NCBI RefSeq assembly: GCF_000772965.1
Contig: NZ_JPVQ01000012.1
Coordinates: 1-64,000, forward strand
DNA length: 64,000 bases
Direction: 5' to 3'
From: Ureibacillus massiliensis 4400831 = CIP 108448 = CCUG 49529
GTDB taxonomy: Bacteria; Bacillota; Bacilli; Bacillales_A; Planococcaceae
A program made the position numbers and the translations under genes. Shown here one piece after another: positions 46,735 to 54,261 of the stretch (positions are counted from its first letter, which is position 1; the number at the start of each line of letters is the position of its first letter). The notes below the pieces were generated by a model. The model was not told where the DNA came from and did not search any database. It worked only from the letters and a program-made list of their open reading frames with translations.

Positions 46735-46766
46735 GGCTTAACCGGCAATGCTGGTTAAGCCGTTCT
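46735..46766 (+). terminator. Terminator of the DUF4097 gene
   Basis: GGCTTAACCGGC (46735-46746) pairs with GCTGGTTAAGCC (46750-46761) with a G-T pair, then GTTCTT. Confidence 0.75.
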
Positions 46767-46862: not shown

Positions 46863-49232
46863 ATGAGTGATTTAACTGTAATAGACGTGAACAGGTGTTA
46901 TAAAGAGGCAGAACAAAAGGCTTCCCAATACTTCTCCTTACTACAACATCAAATTCAACACCAGTCTTATATCCAATCTTTAACAGAAGACATTCGAATA
47001 TGGAAAAAGTATCATGTACATACTTCGGTACTTTCTATTTTTTCAAGTAAAAATCAAAATAAACCGAATAGCACCGATTATCAGCAATATTTGAAATGGC
47101 TAGATTATAAAGGAAAATTAAAGAGTTATTTAGAGCGTAGTGTATCTTATATATTTTTGCGTGATTTAGGAAAAACATTAGATAATTTACAATCACAAAA
47201 ACGTATTCATCATATCGTCGAAGACCTTATCGAACAAATAAAAAATCCAGAAAAAAAGCAAAATGGATTAACGGATCTATTTAATCTTTCAGGTATGTTC
47301 CGAAAAGCTCAAAAGGAGAAAATAGAAACAACAATTATATGGCTGTTTGAAAAGCTCCATGAAGTAGAAAAGAATTTGCCAGAAAAAATGGATGGACTTA
47401 ATGCGAAAAGAAAACTGGTTAAAATAATCGCAGGAGTTTTAATGCATGTAAATGAGGAAACATATGAGTCTTTATCTGAAGGAGAACGTGTTAAGAGGCT
47501 TGAAGATGCTATTCGTTTAGGGTATTCCTATGGATTAACCTACCCTTTCATCGATGATTTATTAGATTCGAACGTATTAAATTCAGATGAGAAGAAGCGA
47601 TATTCAAAATTAATTGAAAGAACTCTTACGACTGGTGAAGTTCCTGATTTTGGCGTGTGGGAAGGTACAAATCAACGTCTCATGCAGTACATTCATTCAG
47701 AACTAAAAGAAGCTTTTATGTGCATAAAGCAATATCAAAAGGAGCCATCAAAATTTTTTGAGCAGGCTTATGTATTTTTTAAATCCCAGGAAATCGATCG
47801 AGAGAAAAGTTTATCAAATCCTAGTTATACAAATGAGGAATTATTTATCCCCATTATTTTAAAGTCTTCTTCATCTAGATTGATAGCGAGAACCATTGTA
47901 AATGTTGAAGAAGATGAAGGATTTGATCAACGAACATTCCTATATGGAATTTATAATCAACTTGCAGATGATTTTTCCGATTTGTTTCAAGATCAAAAGG
48001 ACGGGGCAGTGACGCCTTATACTTATTATTTGAAATATTATAAGACTCGTAATGATTTATTTAACCCTTTTGAATTGTATTGGGTTGTTATAGAGAATTT
48101 AATTCAAAATGTTTATCACTCAGATTCAAAAACACGAGAAGTTATATTAGACCGAGCGATTAATGGACTAAAGCGATTCAAAGAAAAAGTTGGAAATGAA
48201 ACCTATCATCATGTAATGGATACTTTCAAACTAAGAAATAGACCACTTTATCAGCTGATCGATAAAATGGTAAAAAAGGCAGATGATGTTGATTTTTATG
48301 ATAAGCTTCTTCGAGATCGAATGTTGGAAGTATTTAGAAAAGATAAGGAAGAGCAACAACAATTTATAAATACGATTGAAAATGTTCGAGCGTTAATCAA
48401 TGAAAATTTAACAATCGATTATAACAATCCTTTAGATAGCGAGCCTGTAATAGAAGCAGCAAATTATAGCTTAAAGGTCGGTGGGAAAAGATTGCGGCCA
48501 ATCATGACTTGGTTTATGGGAGTCAATGTTTATAATTTAAATGAAGCTGCGATTTTGCCTCTTTTAAAATCATTGGAGTATATGCATACCGCTTCTCTAA
48601 TCTTTGATGACCTTCCTACACAGGATAACGCCTCAACACGTCGCGGAAATCCAACCGTACATGAAATCTATAATACGTCTATTGCAGAACTATCAGGTCT
48701 TTTCTTAACGCAGAAGGCTTTTGAAGAGCAGGCTTCAATGAACCATTTCGATGCTAAATCGGTTTTACGATTGATTCAGTATGCAGCACGAATGACTGCG
48801 GAAATGTGTCAAGGGCAGGCGATGGACTTACAGTCGAAGGGTAAATCACTATCCTTAGAGGAATTAAATACGATTAGTTTTTATAAAACAGGTTTAGGGT
48901 TTGAAGCTTGCTTAGTTATGCCTGCAATTTTAGCTAATGCAAGTGAAGAAGAAAAAGACTCAATTAAAAAATTTGCACGTCACGCTGGTATTGCATTTCA
49001 AATAAAAGATGATTTATTAGATGTTATAGGGGATACAAAATTACTAGGTAAGAAGATTGGAAAGGATGTAGAAAACAATAATTCTACATTTGTATCCATA
49101 CTAGGTATGGATGGAGCGAAAAAGGAAATGTGGAATCACTATTGCATTGCGATGGAATCTCTAGAAAACATTCCTCGCAACACAGCCTTCTTGAAGCATT
49201 TTTTAAACTATATTGTAAATAGAGAAAAATAA
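46863..49232 (+). CDS. Two-domain isoprenoid synthase protein: class I-like domain fused to a prenyl diphosphate synthase
   Basis: The C-terminal part (about 500-789) is a full trans-prenyl diphosphate synthase: GGKRLRP (540-546), first Asp-rich motif DDLPTQD (582-588) with RRG, EMCQGQAMDL, and second motif DDLLD (716-720). A DDxxxxD first motif with this context is typical of bacterial FPP/GGPP synthases. The N-terminal part (about 1-490) is all-helical and contains its own DDLLD (231-235) and DDFSD (369-373), set as in class I isoprenoid enzymes. It could be a terpene cyclase, a second prenyltransferase or a regulatory pseudo-domain. The size (789) is about 2.5 times that of normal synthases. 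GGTGAG precedes ATG 46863; it is monocistronic with terminators on both sides. The domain order, cyclase-like then prenyltransferase, recalls fungal bifunctional terpene synthases. Confidence 0.82.
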   Translation: MSDLTVIDVNRCYKEAEQKASQYFSLLQHQIQHQSYIQSLTEDIRIWKKYHVHTSVLSIFSSKNQNKPNSTDYQQYLKWLDYKGKLKSYLERSVSYIFLRDLGKTLDNLQSQKRIHHIVEDLIEQIKNPEKKQNGLTDLFNLSGMFRKAQKEKIETTIIWLFEKLHEVEKNLPEKMDGLNAKRKLVKIIAGVLMHVNEETYESLSEGERVKRLEDAIRLGYSYGLTYPFIDDLLDSNVLNSDEKKRYSKLIERTLTTGEVPDFGVWEGTNQRLMQYIHSELKEAFMCIKQYQKEPSKFFEQAYVFFKSQEIDREKSLSNPSYTNEELFIPIILKSSSSRLIARTIVNVEEDEGFDQRTFLYGIYNQLADDFSDLFQDQKDGAVTPYTYYLKYYKTRNDLFNPFELYWVVIENLIQNVYHSDSKTREVILDRAINGLKRFKEKVGNETYHHVMDTFKLRNRPLYQLIDKMVKKADDVDFYDKLLRDRMLEVFRKDKEEQQQFINTIENVRALINENLTIDYNNPLDSEPVIEAANYSLKVGGKRLRPIMTWFMGVNVYNLNEAAILPLLKSLEYMHTASLIFDDLPTQDNASTRRGNPTVHEIYNTSIAELSGLFLTQKAFEEQASMNHFDAKSVLRLIQYAARMTAEMCQGQAMDLQSKGKSLSLEELNTISFYKTGLGFEACLVMPAILANASEEEKDSIKKFARHAGIAFQIKDDLLDVIGDTKLLGKKIGKDVENNNSTFVSILGMDGAKKEMWNHYCIAMESLENIPRNTAFLKHFLNYIVNREK

Positions 49233-49234
49233 CA

Positions 49235-49276
49235 AAAGAGTATTTTCCAAGGATTCCCCTTGGAAAGTACTCTTTA
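49235..49276. terminator. Strong bidirectional terminator
   Basis: AAAGAGTATTTTCCAAGG (49235-49252) pairs with CCTTGGAAAGTACTCTTT (49258-49275) with one mismatch between convergent genes. Confidence 0.85.
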
Positions 49277-51012: not shown

Positions 51013-51582
51013 TTAGAAAAATTTCTTTTTACCTTGTTCATCCTTTAAGATTTCGACAGCTTCTCTAAATCGAAGGGAATGTACAACTTCTCGTTCCCGT
51101 AAAAATTTCAATGCGTCATTTACATCTGGATCGTCAGAAATGTCAATGATCCATTGATAAGTAGCACGGGCTTTCTCTTCTGCTGCAATGTCCTCATAAA
51201 GGTCAGCTATCGGGTCGCCTTTTGCTTGGATATAAGATGCAGTCCATGGAACACCAGCAGCATTATGATAAAATAACGCTCGATCATGGTTAACATAATG
51301 ATCACCTATACCTGCTGCTTTTAACTGATCTGGAGTAGCGTCTTTTGTCAGTTTATAAACCATTGTAGCAATCATTTCTAAGTGCGAGAATTCTTCCATG
51401 GCAATATCATTTAATAGACCAATAACCTTATCCGGAATCGTATAGCGCTGATTCATATAACGAAGAGCAGCTGCTAATTCACCGTCAGCTCCACCGTATT
51501 GTTCGATTAAAAACTTAGCAAGCATAGGATTACACGTGCTTACTCTTACTGGATATTGAAGTTTTTTTTCGTAATAGAACAT
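51013..51582 (-). CDS. cotJC: Spore coat protein CotJC (manganese-catalase-like)
   Basis: A ferritin-like four-helix protein of the Mn-catalase family made in the mother cell and placed in the inner coat. EEFSHLEMIATMVYKL carries metal ligands; a second set is in DIAAEEKARATYQW and REREVVHSLRF. Length, 189, matches B. subtilis CotJC. It is the last gene of cotJABC. Confidence 0.95.
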   Translation of the reverse strand: MFYYEKKLQYPVRVSTCNPMLAKFLIEQYGGADGELAAALRYMNQRYTIPDKVIGLLNDIAMEEFSHLEMIATMVYKLTKDATPDQLKAAGIGDHYVNHDRALFYHNAAGVPWTASYIQAKGDPIADLYEDIAAEEKARATYQWIIDISDDPDVNDALKFLREREVVHSLRFREAVEILKDEQGKKKFF

Positions 51583-51609
51583 TACTTATATACTCCCCTC
51601 ACTTTTTCA

Positions 51610-51873
51610 TTAAACTTGCCAAGGCCATGGTGTATCATCTACATTCCAAGGGTAGCTGGAAAAGCTCTTGCCAAAATTCATAAGCGGACCAAATTTTTTC
51701 TCGAATTCTACTTTAAGTCTCATACTTTGCTGAGCCGTTTCATTAAACTGTTTTATTGCCTCTAAATCATGGGGATGAGTATTTAAATAGAGATTTAATT
51801 CGACAAGGACAAAATCAATTGCTTGTAGCTCTTCCAGTAATTGATAGTACTCTTTAGGCATTTGTTTCGTCAC
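51610..51873 (-). CDS. cotJB: Spore coat protein CotJB
   Basis: An 87-residue protein with the CotJB pattern: YYQLLEELQAIDFVLVELNL, YLNTHPHDLEAIKQFNE and a Trp/Pro-rich tail ending in PWPW. Its start overlaps the end of cotJA by 4 bp (ATGA type), which suggests coupled translation. Confidence 0.95.
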   Translation of the reverse strand: MTKQMPKEYYQLLEELQAIDFVLVELNLYLNTHPHDLEAIKQFNETAQQSMRLKVEFEKKFGPLMNFGKSFSSYPWNVDDTPWPWQV

Positions 51874-52091
51874 GGTTTTTCCACTCCTTTTTTCGGATCA
51901 GGATACGGGCTATATAATTGAGGCCATAATGTACCGTGCATAAGGGCTTGTGCAGGTGGAAACTGTTCCATACCTGGTGGCTGGAAGTGAATGTAAAGCT
52001 GAGGGGGCGTTGAATAACTTTTAACAAGTATTGGTTTACAAGGATCAAAAGGACTTACAAAAGGTCTCCAGTATTTAAATTGCGTAAACAT
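51870..52091 (-). CDS. cotJA: Spore coat-associated protein CotJA
   Basis: 73 residues, rich in Pro, Tyr and Phe: RPFVSPFDPCKPILVKSYST, then GTLWPQLYSPYPDP, which is typical of CotJA, needed to assemble CotJC. GGGAGGA precedes ATG 52091. First gene of the operon, with a sigma-E-type promoter. Confidence 0.94.
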   Translation of the reverse strand: MFTQFKYWRPFVSPFDPCKPILVKSYSTPPQLYIHFQPPGMEQFPPAQALMHGTLWPQLYSPYPDPKKGVEKP

Positions 52092-52112
52092 ATAATCCTC
52101 CCTTCATTTATT

Positions 52113-52142
52113 GCGTCATCCAATATATATGTCGAACGAAAT
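52113..52142 (-). promoter_or_regulatory. Sigma-E promoter of cotJABC
   Basis: On the minus strand GAATATA (-35), 14 bp, CATATATAT (-10), near the mother-cell consensus KMATATT-N14-CATACANT. Confidence 0.7.
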
Positions 52143-52326
52143 CAGTATATTCGACAAATACGGTTTCGGTTTCGAAAAATTTAGTAAAAAATTGAAATTT
52201 GTAGATAGAAGGTAAAAAACATATTAAAAAAAGATCCCTAAAACCGCTATATATAGACAAAAATAAAAAATTATCAACAAGTAATTAGAAAATGAATTGG
52301 TATCATAATCAGGCGAACTTCATAGT

Positions 52327-54261
52327 ATGTTTATAAACCATGCCATGAAGAATGGAGGGAAGATTATCGATATCTTAAATAAGGTACGGAATTTCCGTGA
52401 AGAAGAAAATAGGCTGAAATGGGAAGGGACCTTTGCAGAATATTTGGAGCTAGTTAAGGAAAAACCAGAAATTGCACAAACAGCTCACTCCCGCGTATAC
52501 AATATGATTAAAAGTGCTGGTGTAGAAGAAAAAAATGGACAAAAGAACTATAAGTTTTTCAATAAGGAAATGTTCGGTTTAGAATCTGCACTAGAACGCT
52601 TAGTTGAGGAGTATTTCCACCCGGCAGCAAGAAGGTTAGATGTAAGAAAACGCATTTTACTATTAATGGGTCCAGTGAGTGGTGGTAAATCAACAATTGT
52701 AACAATGCTAAAAAGAGGTCTTGAACAATTTTCAAGGTCAGAAGAAGGCGCAGTTTATGCTATTAAAGGATGCCCGATGCATGAGGATCCACTACACCTC
52801 ATACCGCATCATCTGCGAGAAGATTTCTATAAGGAATATGGAATTCGTATTGAAGGAAGTTTATCACCACTAAATACAATGCGTTTAGAGCAAGAATATG
52901 GTGGTCGCATTGAAGATGTCATGATTGAAAGGATATTCTTCTCGGAGGATAAGCGAGTCGGTATTGGTACATTTACTCCATCTGATCCGAAATCGCAGGA
53001 TATCGCCGATTTAACAGGAAGCATTGACTTTTCAACAATTGCAGAGTATGGTTCAGAATCAGATCCACGTGCATATCGATTTGACGGGGAATTAAACAAA
53101 GCAAATCGAGGTATGATGGAGTTCCAAGAAATGCTGAAATTGGACGAGAAATTTTTATGGCACTTATTATCATTAACGCAAGAAGGAAACTTTAAGGCTG
53201 GTCGCTTTGCACTAATATCGGCAGATGAACTTATTGTCGCTCATACGAACGAAACAGAATATCGCTCATTTATATCGAATAAAAAGAACGAGGCACTTCA
53301 TTCTCGTATTATTGTAATTCCAATTCCATACAACCTAAAGGTCAGTGAGGAAGAAAGAATTTACGAGAAAATGATTCGTGAAAGTGATATAGCACATGTT
53401 CATATTGCGCCCCATGCATTACGAGCCGCAGCAATTTTCTCGATATTAACTAGACTAGAAGTTCCGAAGAAACAGGGGATTGATCTACTGAAAAAAATGC
53501 GCTTATATGATGGGGAAAATGTTGAAGGGTTTAATTCAGTGGATGTTGAGGAGTTAAAGAAAGAGTTCCCGAATGAAGGTATGCAAGGCATTGATCCTCG
53601 ATATATTATTAATCGAATCTCATCAGCTATTATACGTAAGGAAGTACCATCTATCAATGCTTTGGACGTATTACGTGCTTTAAAAGACGGTCTCGATCAG
53701 CATCCTTCTATAACACAAGAAGATCGAGAAAAGTATATGAATTATATTGCAGTCGCAAGAAGAGAGTATGATGAAATCGCGAAAAACGAAGTGCAAAAAG
53801 CATTTGTTTATTCTTATGAAGAATCAGCTAAACACTTATTAAACAATTATTTAGATAATGTTGAAGCCTTCTGTAATAAGAACAAACTTCGTGACCCATT
53901 AACTGGTGAAGAGATGAATCCAGATGAAAAATTAATGCGGTCCATTGAAGAGCAAATCGGCATTTCTGAAAATGCGAAAAAAGCCTTCCGTGAAGAAATA
54001 TTAATTCGTCTTTCAGCCTATGCAAGAAAGGGACAACGTTTTGATTATAATTCTCACGAGAGATTAAGAGAAGCGATTCAGAAGAAGCTATTTGCAGACT
54101 TAAAGGATATTGTGAAAATTACTACGTCATCTACTACTCCTGATGAATCACAATTGAAGAAAATCAATGAAGTAATTGCTACTCTTGTTGATGAATATGG
54201 TTATAACACAACAAGTGCAAATGAGCTGCTAAGATATGTTGGTAGCCTTTTAAATCGATAA
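52327..54261 (+). CDS. prkA: PrkA serine protein kinase / AAA+ protein
   Basis: This mother-cell protein supports sporulation; it has an AAA+ domain with Walker A GPVSGGKSTIV and a C-terminal kinase-like domain (KRGLEQFS ... to the end). The family start is normally M-D-I-L, and here DILNKVRNFREEENRLKWEG is present, but the expected ATG is ATC (52366). A clear GGAGG lies 7 bp before that codon. The upstream ATG 52327 has no good ribosome site; ATG 52345 is another option. So the true start may be non-standard. Length from 52366 is 631, as in B. subtilis. Confidence 0.93.
   Translation: MFINHAMKNGGKIIDILNKVRNFREEENRLKWEGTFAEYLELVKEKPEIAQTAHSRVYNMIKSAGVEEKNGQKNYKFFNKEMFGLESALERLVEEYFHPAARRLDVRKRILLLMGPVSGGKSTIVTMLKRGLEQFSRSEEGAVYAIKGCPMHEDPLHLIPHHLREDFYKEYGIRIEGSLSPLNTMRLEQEYGGRIEDVMIERIFFSEDKRVGIGTFTPSDPKSQDIADLTGSIDFSTIAEYGSESDPRAYRFDGELNKANRGMMEFQEMLKLDEKFLWHLLSLTQEGNFKAGRFALISADELIVAHTNETEYRSFISNKKNEALHSRIIVIPIPYNLKVSEEERIYEKMIRESDIAHVHIAPHALRAAAIFSILTRLEVPKKQGIDLLKKMRLYDGENVEGFNSVDVEELKKEFPNEGMQGIDPRYIINRISSAIIRKEVPSINALDVLRALKDGLDQHPSITQEDREKYMNYIAVARREYDEIAKNEVQKAFVYSYEESAKHLLNNYLDNVEAFCNKNKLRDPLTGEEMNPDEKLMRSIEEQIGISENAKKAFREEILIRLSAYARKGQRFDYNSHERLREAIQKKLFADLKDIVKITTSSTTPDESQLKKINEVIATLVDEYGYNTTSANELLRYVGSLLNR

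Follow-up and report, generated by a model that had tools for sequence, protein, structure and literature searches.

The locus and its fused gene

The window, which means the whole stretch of 64,000 nucleotides from Ureibacillus massiliensis analysed here, carries on its plus strand a single ATG frame of 789 codons without interruption, and the minus strand in register with it is packed with stop codons. A preliminary description of the DNA had claimed this frame together with two pairs of Asp motifs, one pair in each half of the protein, and all of them were found at the residues where they had been placed. The ATG is preceded by a ribosome-site-like sequence, AAAGGTGAG. The features referred to below are as follows.

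46735..46761, plus strand: upstream terminator-like hairpin between a DUF4097 gene and the fused gene (consensus match only)
46863..49232, plus strand: fused two-domain isoprenoid synthase gene, 789 aa, single ATG frame, the first domain as predicted
46863..48338, plus strand: N-half, residues 1-492, predicted divergent class I isoprenoid-synthase-like domain with an additional N-terminal helical part
47553..47567, plus strand: first Asp motif of the N-half, DDLLD, residues 231-235, closing a predicted helix at 206-235
47862..47864, plus strand: Lys334 of the N-half, proposed counterpart of K675, the KT lysine of the C-half (weak profile alignment)
47967..47993, plus strand: second Asp motif of the N-half, DDFSDLFQD, residues 369-377 (DDFSD at 369-373), with the spacing DxxxDxxxD
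48339..49229, plus strand: C-half, residues 493-789, trans-prenyl diphosphate synthase by its sequence
48606..48626, plus strand: first Asp motif of the C-half, DDLPTQD, residues 582-588, with Ala577 at position -5
49008..49022, plus strand: second Asp motif of the C-half, DDLLD, residues 716-720
49235..49275, plus strand: downstream terminator-like hairpin immediately 3' of the fused gene (consensus match only)

Since terminator-like hairpins flank the gene on both sides, it is probably transcribed alone, as a transcription unit of its own. The operon or gene-cluster reading was considered and rejected, because among frames of at least 70 aa around the gene at 29 loci (three genomes being counted twice) no conserved neighbour was found, the largest cluster of neighbours reaching 7 of the 29; the enzyme therefore seems independent of clustered pathway genes. 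At 51013-54261 of the window, cotJC (Mn catalase family; labelled by position), cotJB and cotJA are encoded on the minus strand next to a divergent prkA, so that the cotJABC and prkA genes lie 1.8-5 kb from the fused gene. The cotJ genes recur in the nearest relative alone (loci L001 and L085, which are the same), a gene of the prkA cluster being near also in L083, and a sporulation role is therefore left unclaimed. The aligned upstream DNA of four loci, three of them distinct, shows no clear sigma-factor motif.

Two halves in sequence and predicted fold

The C-half had been described as a complete prenyl diphosphate synthase at about residues 500-789, and the profile searches bear this out: Pfam polyprenyl_synt (PF00348) matches residues 530-755 with an E-value of 1.7e-55 and 188.4 bits (cut-off 27), and by profile the prenyl synthase domain extends over residues 508-788. 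The best NCBIfam model, NF045485 for farnesyl diphosphate synthase, covers the same 508-788 with 229 bits, below its cut-off of 275. The closest PDB sequences are bacterial FPP and GGPP synthases, and the squalene/phytoene synthase profile PF00494 gives a weak match of 12.7 bits in this half. Conservation was read from an alignment of 64 rows standing for 61 genomes, three of them present twice, which comprises the loci fetched by then, a subset of the matching genomes, whose sequences have 49-100% identity to the window protein. In keeping with membership of PF00348, the residues D582, D583, D588, D716, D717 and D720 are invariant in 64/64, as are K542, R543, H575, R593 and R594 (the KR pair, the His before the first motif and RRG), which we take to be residues of the IPP site. 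By these sequence characters the C-half is a trans-prenyl diphosphate synthase.

A midpoint-rooted tree of 20 of the 64 C-halves with 9 IspA-type and 11 long-chain-type synthases places the C-halves in a single group (support 100/99) which joins the IspA group; the program flagged long branches. The position -5 to the first Asp motif, Ala577 in the window protein, is Ala in all 64 sequences, compared with Tyr (8) or Phe (1) in the nine IspA-type proteins, and with Ala (9), Gly (1) or Ser (1) in the eleven long-chain-type synthases (L117 being left out). A small residue at this position permits chains longer than C15, and the constant Ala set against the Tyr or Phe of IspA-type proteins therefore suggests that the C-half makes a prenyl chain longer than C15. 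Of the C15-C25 range first proposed for the chain, the C15 lower bound becomes less likely.

The N-half is far more divergent. Searches of Pfam, NCBIfam, PHROGs and the PDB sequences with residues 1-496 or 1-492 gave nothing significant, and a profile of eight N-halves searched against the PDB returned five chains at E 0.17-1, with zero isoprenoid synthases among them. The N-half lacks the marks of a trans-prenyl diphosphate synthase: PF00348 gives a mere 12.7 bits at residues 354-379, which is the second Asp motif, an invariant Gly224 stands at the position of His575 of the C-half, and RRG is missing after the first motif. The canonical NSE/DTE motif is also absent, and in its place there is DDFxDxxxD, which is spaced like the NSE/DTE triad of terpene synthases. 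The first and second motifs are separated by 138 residues, compared with 134 in the C-half, and each lies near a predicted helix end.

Profile-to-profile comparison by hhalign gave several weak registers. Residues 218-236, with the first motif, pair with the second motif in the HepT-type set of long-chain synthases (E 0.0015, 17% probability), and residues 320-379 align to the stretch of the C-half from KT to the second motif, K334 falling on K675 (E 0.017, 2.7% probability). Because these registers are weak and inconsistent, the motif-to-motif correspondence is assumed from order. With an E limit of 10, the DUF2600 profile (PF10776) is unlisted for the N-half, and hhalign aligns the two at E 0.05-0.11 over a short segment that misses the motifs. 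DUF2600, IspA, HepT and ComQ proteins were all set aside as parents of the N-half on unconvincing hhalign alignments, the best being of HepT type with 12-17% probability, in a test that is itself weak, for it misses IspA against DUF2600 too. A recent tandem duplication of one domain was likewise rejected, the profiles of the two halves aligning around the second Asp motif alone (E 0.017-0.12).

A structure model of the N-half built from eight aligned sequences is all-helical, with a mean pLDDT of 81.2 and a pTM of 0.81. With an E limit of 10, Foldseek returned 389 PDB matches for it, of which none has an E of 0.001 or below; the best 50 of the 389 are, 50 out of 50, class I isoprenoid synthases, with a best E of 0.03, and include FPP, GGPP, polyprenyl, squalene, kaurene, aristolochene and linalool synthases. 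The scores of these best 50 are weak, with probabilities of 0.63-1.00 and TM-scores of 0.21-0.33 by query and at most 0.52 by target. For comparison, a model of the whole chain (pLDDT 72) finds FPP/GGPP synthases with an E-value of 3e-8. A fold check of residues 1-490 had been proposed in the preliminary description, and its outcome agrees with the idea of a second synthase domain: we regard it, at the level of a predicted model, as good evidence for placing the N-half in the class I superfamily, and none for any subfamily. We therefore consider the N-half best read as a second, predicted class I isoprenoid-synthase domain.

Conservation was compared next, and it marks the motifs as more than chance; of the refuting conditions set in the preliminary description, the two open to computation, an unlike fold of the N-half and motifs unconserved in orthologues, did not come true. 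Within the 64 aligned sequences the Asp residues D231, D232, D235, D369, D370, D373 and D377 of the N-half are invariant (64/64), and so are the basic residues R183, K184, K187, K334, R339 and R343; D377 is thus more constant than its C-half counterpart D724, which is Asn in 9/64. The mean frequency of the commonest residue is 0.75 in the N-half and 0.77 in the C-half over the 64 sequences. When a 95%-identical relative is compared, the N-half has a dN/dS of 0.09 and the C-half one of 0.07; with a 71% relative the values are 0.11 and 0.07, this pair at a dS near 2, which is near saturation. The N-half is under strong purifying selection, with dN/dS about 0.1.

Distribution, stand-alone relatives and host background

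Eight named loci of the fused gene lie in Ureibacillus, Neobacillus, Sporosarcina, Gracilibacillus and Lentibacillus. The search for the same fusion in other Bacillales, suggested at the outset, found that it recurs. Within the order, 70 of the 261 genomes have an N-half match, and these include 21 of the 25 from the genus; for genomes sampled from the class the figure is 43 of 398, for those sampled from the phylum 9 of 398, and for another class, with a profile including stand-alone relatives, 3 of 82. The sets overlap, and their counts are not additive. A single frame long enough for both halves was seen in 67/70 genomes of the order, 43/43 of the class, 8/9 of the phylum and 3/3 of the other class, the frames holding the full N-half match being at least 786 aa in the 67/70 and at least 776 aa in the 43/43. 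Frame length by itself does not prove the presence of the C-half, which is seen directly in the 64 aligned sequences; in addition, of ten genomes searched nine are fused, and all nine have a PF00348 match within the frame. The distribution of the long frame is patchy yet wide.

The three exceptions in the order are G225, G247 with a 660-aa frame apparently cut by a contig end, and G173 with a scrap of 55 aa. At G225:C1:542650-544119 there is a 794-aa frame with a middle stretch matching in another frame. At one further locus (L008 7603-9938) the fused gene is split over two frames of 586 and 216 aa, and this locus was left out of the alignment. At G225 and L008 alike, either sequencing error or decay may be the cause.

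Relatives of the N-half that stand alone were found in a further Bacillota class (L097 3-1193 and L134 3302-4561, about 400-420 aa). They are homologous to residues 216-384 of the N-half, have no attached C-half, and are 21-22% identical to the N-half of the window, one of them being aligned by profile comparison at E 1e-9. Both keep R183, Y223, Y227, P228, D231, D235, K334, Q366, D369, D370, D373 and D377, hence the same Asp, Lys and Arg positions except D232 of the first motif, which is Asn in both. The protein from L097 (P0002) has zero Pfam or NCBIfam matches, and the two would, by their sequences, belong to a class I isoprenoid-synthase-like family without a name. Of these two relatives, that of genome G961 is a 397-residue frame cut by a contig end which matches N-half residues 216-384 at E 3e-11, and that of G920, from the same class, is a complete gene of 419 aa; 2 of 15 genomes searched carry a relative. 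The C-half-like match of G961 is a gene of its own, flanked by xseB-like and dxs-like frames (labelled by reading). That the N-half domain exists without the C-half is an argument against a purely regulatory role.

As to mobile elements, 380 plasmid records match in a search with the whole protein, none covering 80% of it and the best 20 of the 380 starting at residue 459 or later; P0002 has no plasmid match and the N-half no phage match.

The host genome has neither a DUF2600 large terpene synthase nor a squalene-hopene-type cyclase in searches whose controls were positive, which speaks for the reading of the fused gene proposed below, and a search with Terpene_syn_C_2 (PF19086) was uninformative, its controls being silent as well. 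Elsewhere the genome has IspA, a HepT-type gene and a ComQ-like gene, together with a squalene/phytoene-synthase (SQS_PSY) gene at G000:C71:26286-26900. On contig C74 (L133 2062-5416) there is a ComQ-ComX-ComP-like set, with com labels given by reading, consisting of a 298-aa prenyltransferase-like frame with a PF00348 match, a 53-aa peptide ending in GWR and a 760-aa sensor-kinase-like frame.

Proposed mechanism, rival readings and place among known enzymes

We regard it as rather probable that the gene encodes a self-contained bacterial enzyme, in which the C-half builds a prenyl chain and the N-half turns this chain into a terpene, most likely by cyclisation. The C-half would condense IPP onto an allylic primer and give an all-trans prenyl diphosphate that exceeds FPP in length (C20 or more). 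This diphosphate, possibly channelled between the two halves, would be bound by the N-half through Mg2+ held by DDLLD and DDFxDxxxD and then ionised, and the ionised chain would be converted to a terpene there, most likely through cyclisation. The chain length, metal binding, ionisation, cyclisation and channelling in this scheme are what we infer from the features described above. With Gly224 in place of His575 and no RRG, the N-half is unlikely to add IPP and so to elongate chains by itself; the simplest reading is that it would ionise the diphosphate of the chain that the C-half has made. Cyclisation is a frequent outcome of such chemistry, and the results would also be compatible with head-to-head condensation or with plain loss of the diphosphate.

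The N-half might instead be catalytic and no cyclase, joining two prenyl diphosphates in the manner of squalene/phytoene synthases or prenylating another acceptor, such as a peptide, as ComQ does. Two Asp-rich motifs instead of NSE/DTE would fit this, as would the human squalene synthase chains among the best fold matches and the position of K334, which a weak alignment places like the prenyltransferase Lys. Against it, with the E limit at 10, SQS_PSY (PF00494) is unlisted for the N-half, in a search where the HMMER filters drop most weak matches, and the host already has its separate SQS_PSY gene. A ComQ would have comX and comP adjacent, whereas no conserved neighbour, and none of comP size, was found among frames of at least 70 aa at the 29 loci, and the genome's comQXP-like set stands on another contig. 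We hold this reading to be unlikely, with some weight left to it.

A smaller chance is given to a non-catalytic N-half that regulates the C-half or sets its chain length, like HexA, which the excerpted text of PMC7839719 describes as the small subunit of hexaprenyl diphosphate synthase. The covalent pairing with a prenyl synthase speaks for such a partner, tandem alpha-domains could make an internal dimer, and D232 is Asn in both stand-alone relatives. However, non-catalytic subunits usually lose their Asp motifs, whereas the putative metal ligands of the N-half are all invariant in the 64 sequences, and all but D232 are kept in the stand-alone relatives; the strong purifying selection and the occurrence of the domain apart from the C-half in another class argue in the same direction. 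The inactive regulatory twin, offered earlier as an alternative, is thus disfavoured, and by its sequence the N-half does not look like a dead one. It is quite improbable, finally, that the N-half is some other all-helical domain with coincidental DDxxD motifs. The lack of a significant match in the sequence libraries searched and the weak fold scores would be as expected under coincidence, but all of the best 50 of 389 fold matches belong to one superfamily, and the two motifs, both invariant, have nearly the spacing of the C-half and lie near predicted helix ends.

An enzyme that builds and converts its own chain has its nearest architectural parallel in fungi. In the excerpted text of PMC8307374, chimeras with a class I synthase at the N-terminus and a prenyltransferase at the C-terminus (PTTS) are called unique to fungi and have DDXXD/E and NSE/DTE in the terpene synthase domain, and that of PMC8190136 gives the same domain order for the fusicoccadiene synthase PaFS. 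The window protein shares this order in one chain, with its class I synthase predicted, at 789 aa against about 700 aa in the fungal set as excerpted. It is bacterial, however, and its N-domain has the first motif but DDFxDxxxD instead of (N/D)DxxSxxxE; the C-terminal prenyltransferase is present, and the N-terminal class I domain rests on prediction. Having no NSE/DTE and no terpene-synthase profile match, the protein is not filed as a PTTS member. It is best read as a bacterial prenyltransferase joined to a putative terpene-synthase-type enzyme, which resembles the fungal chimeric enzymes in architecture, with an N-domain family that lies outside the profiles searched.

Among bacterial proteins, the C-half shares all motifs of IspA/CrtE (PF00348), including a first motif of the DDxxxxD kind, and groups next to IspA, but differs in its separate group, its Ala at -5 and the second domain fused to it. 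The large terpene synthases of Bacillus (YtpB/BalTS, DUF2600), which are of class I type with two Asp-rich motifs, bear a likeness to the N-half; as far as the excerpt of PMC7839719 goes, YtpB acts on C35 heptaprenyl diphosphate and the BalTS motifs differ from those of the N-half, and convincing profile similarity is absent. The DUF2600 frames above cut-off found here are 352-384 aa and unfused. In titles and abstract openings of the open-licence literature we found no description of a bacterial fusion of this kind, which is no proof of its being unpublished.

We further propose, as a possibility somewhat short of probable, that spore-forming Bacillota evolved a one-gene assembly-line terpene synthase independently of fungi, with a new class I family of N-domains. 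Needing no other pathway genes, this synthase would turn IPP and DMAPP into cyclic C20-C35 terpenes. Such a widespread bacterial fusion would add a terpene-synthase family missed by the profiles searched here and would suggest that spore formers make a product as yet uncharted. It would also offer a single-gene system for studying the coupling of chain building and conversion, and because one gene without partner genes is concerned, the question is directly testable. If the proposal is true, lipids yet unseen in many Bacillales could be accounted for.
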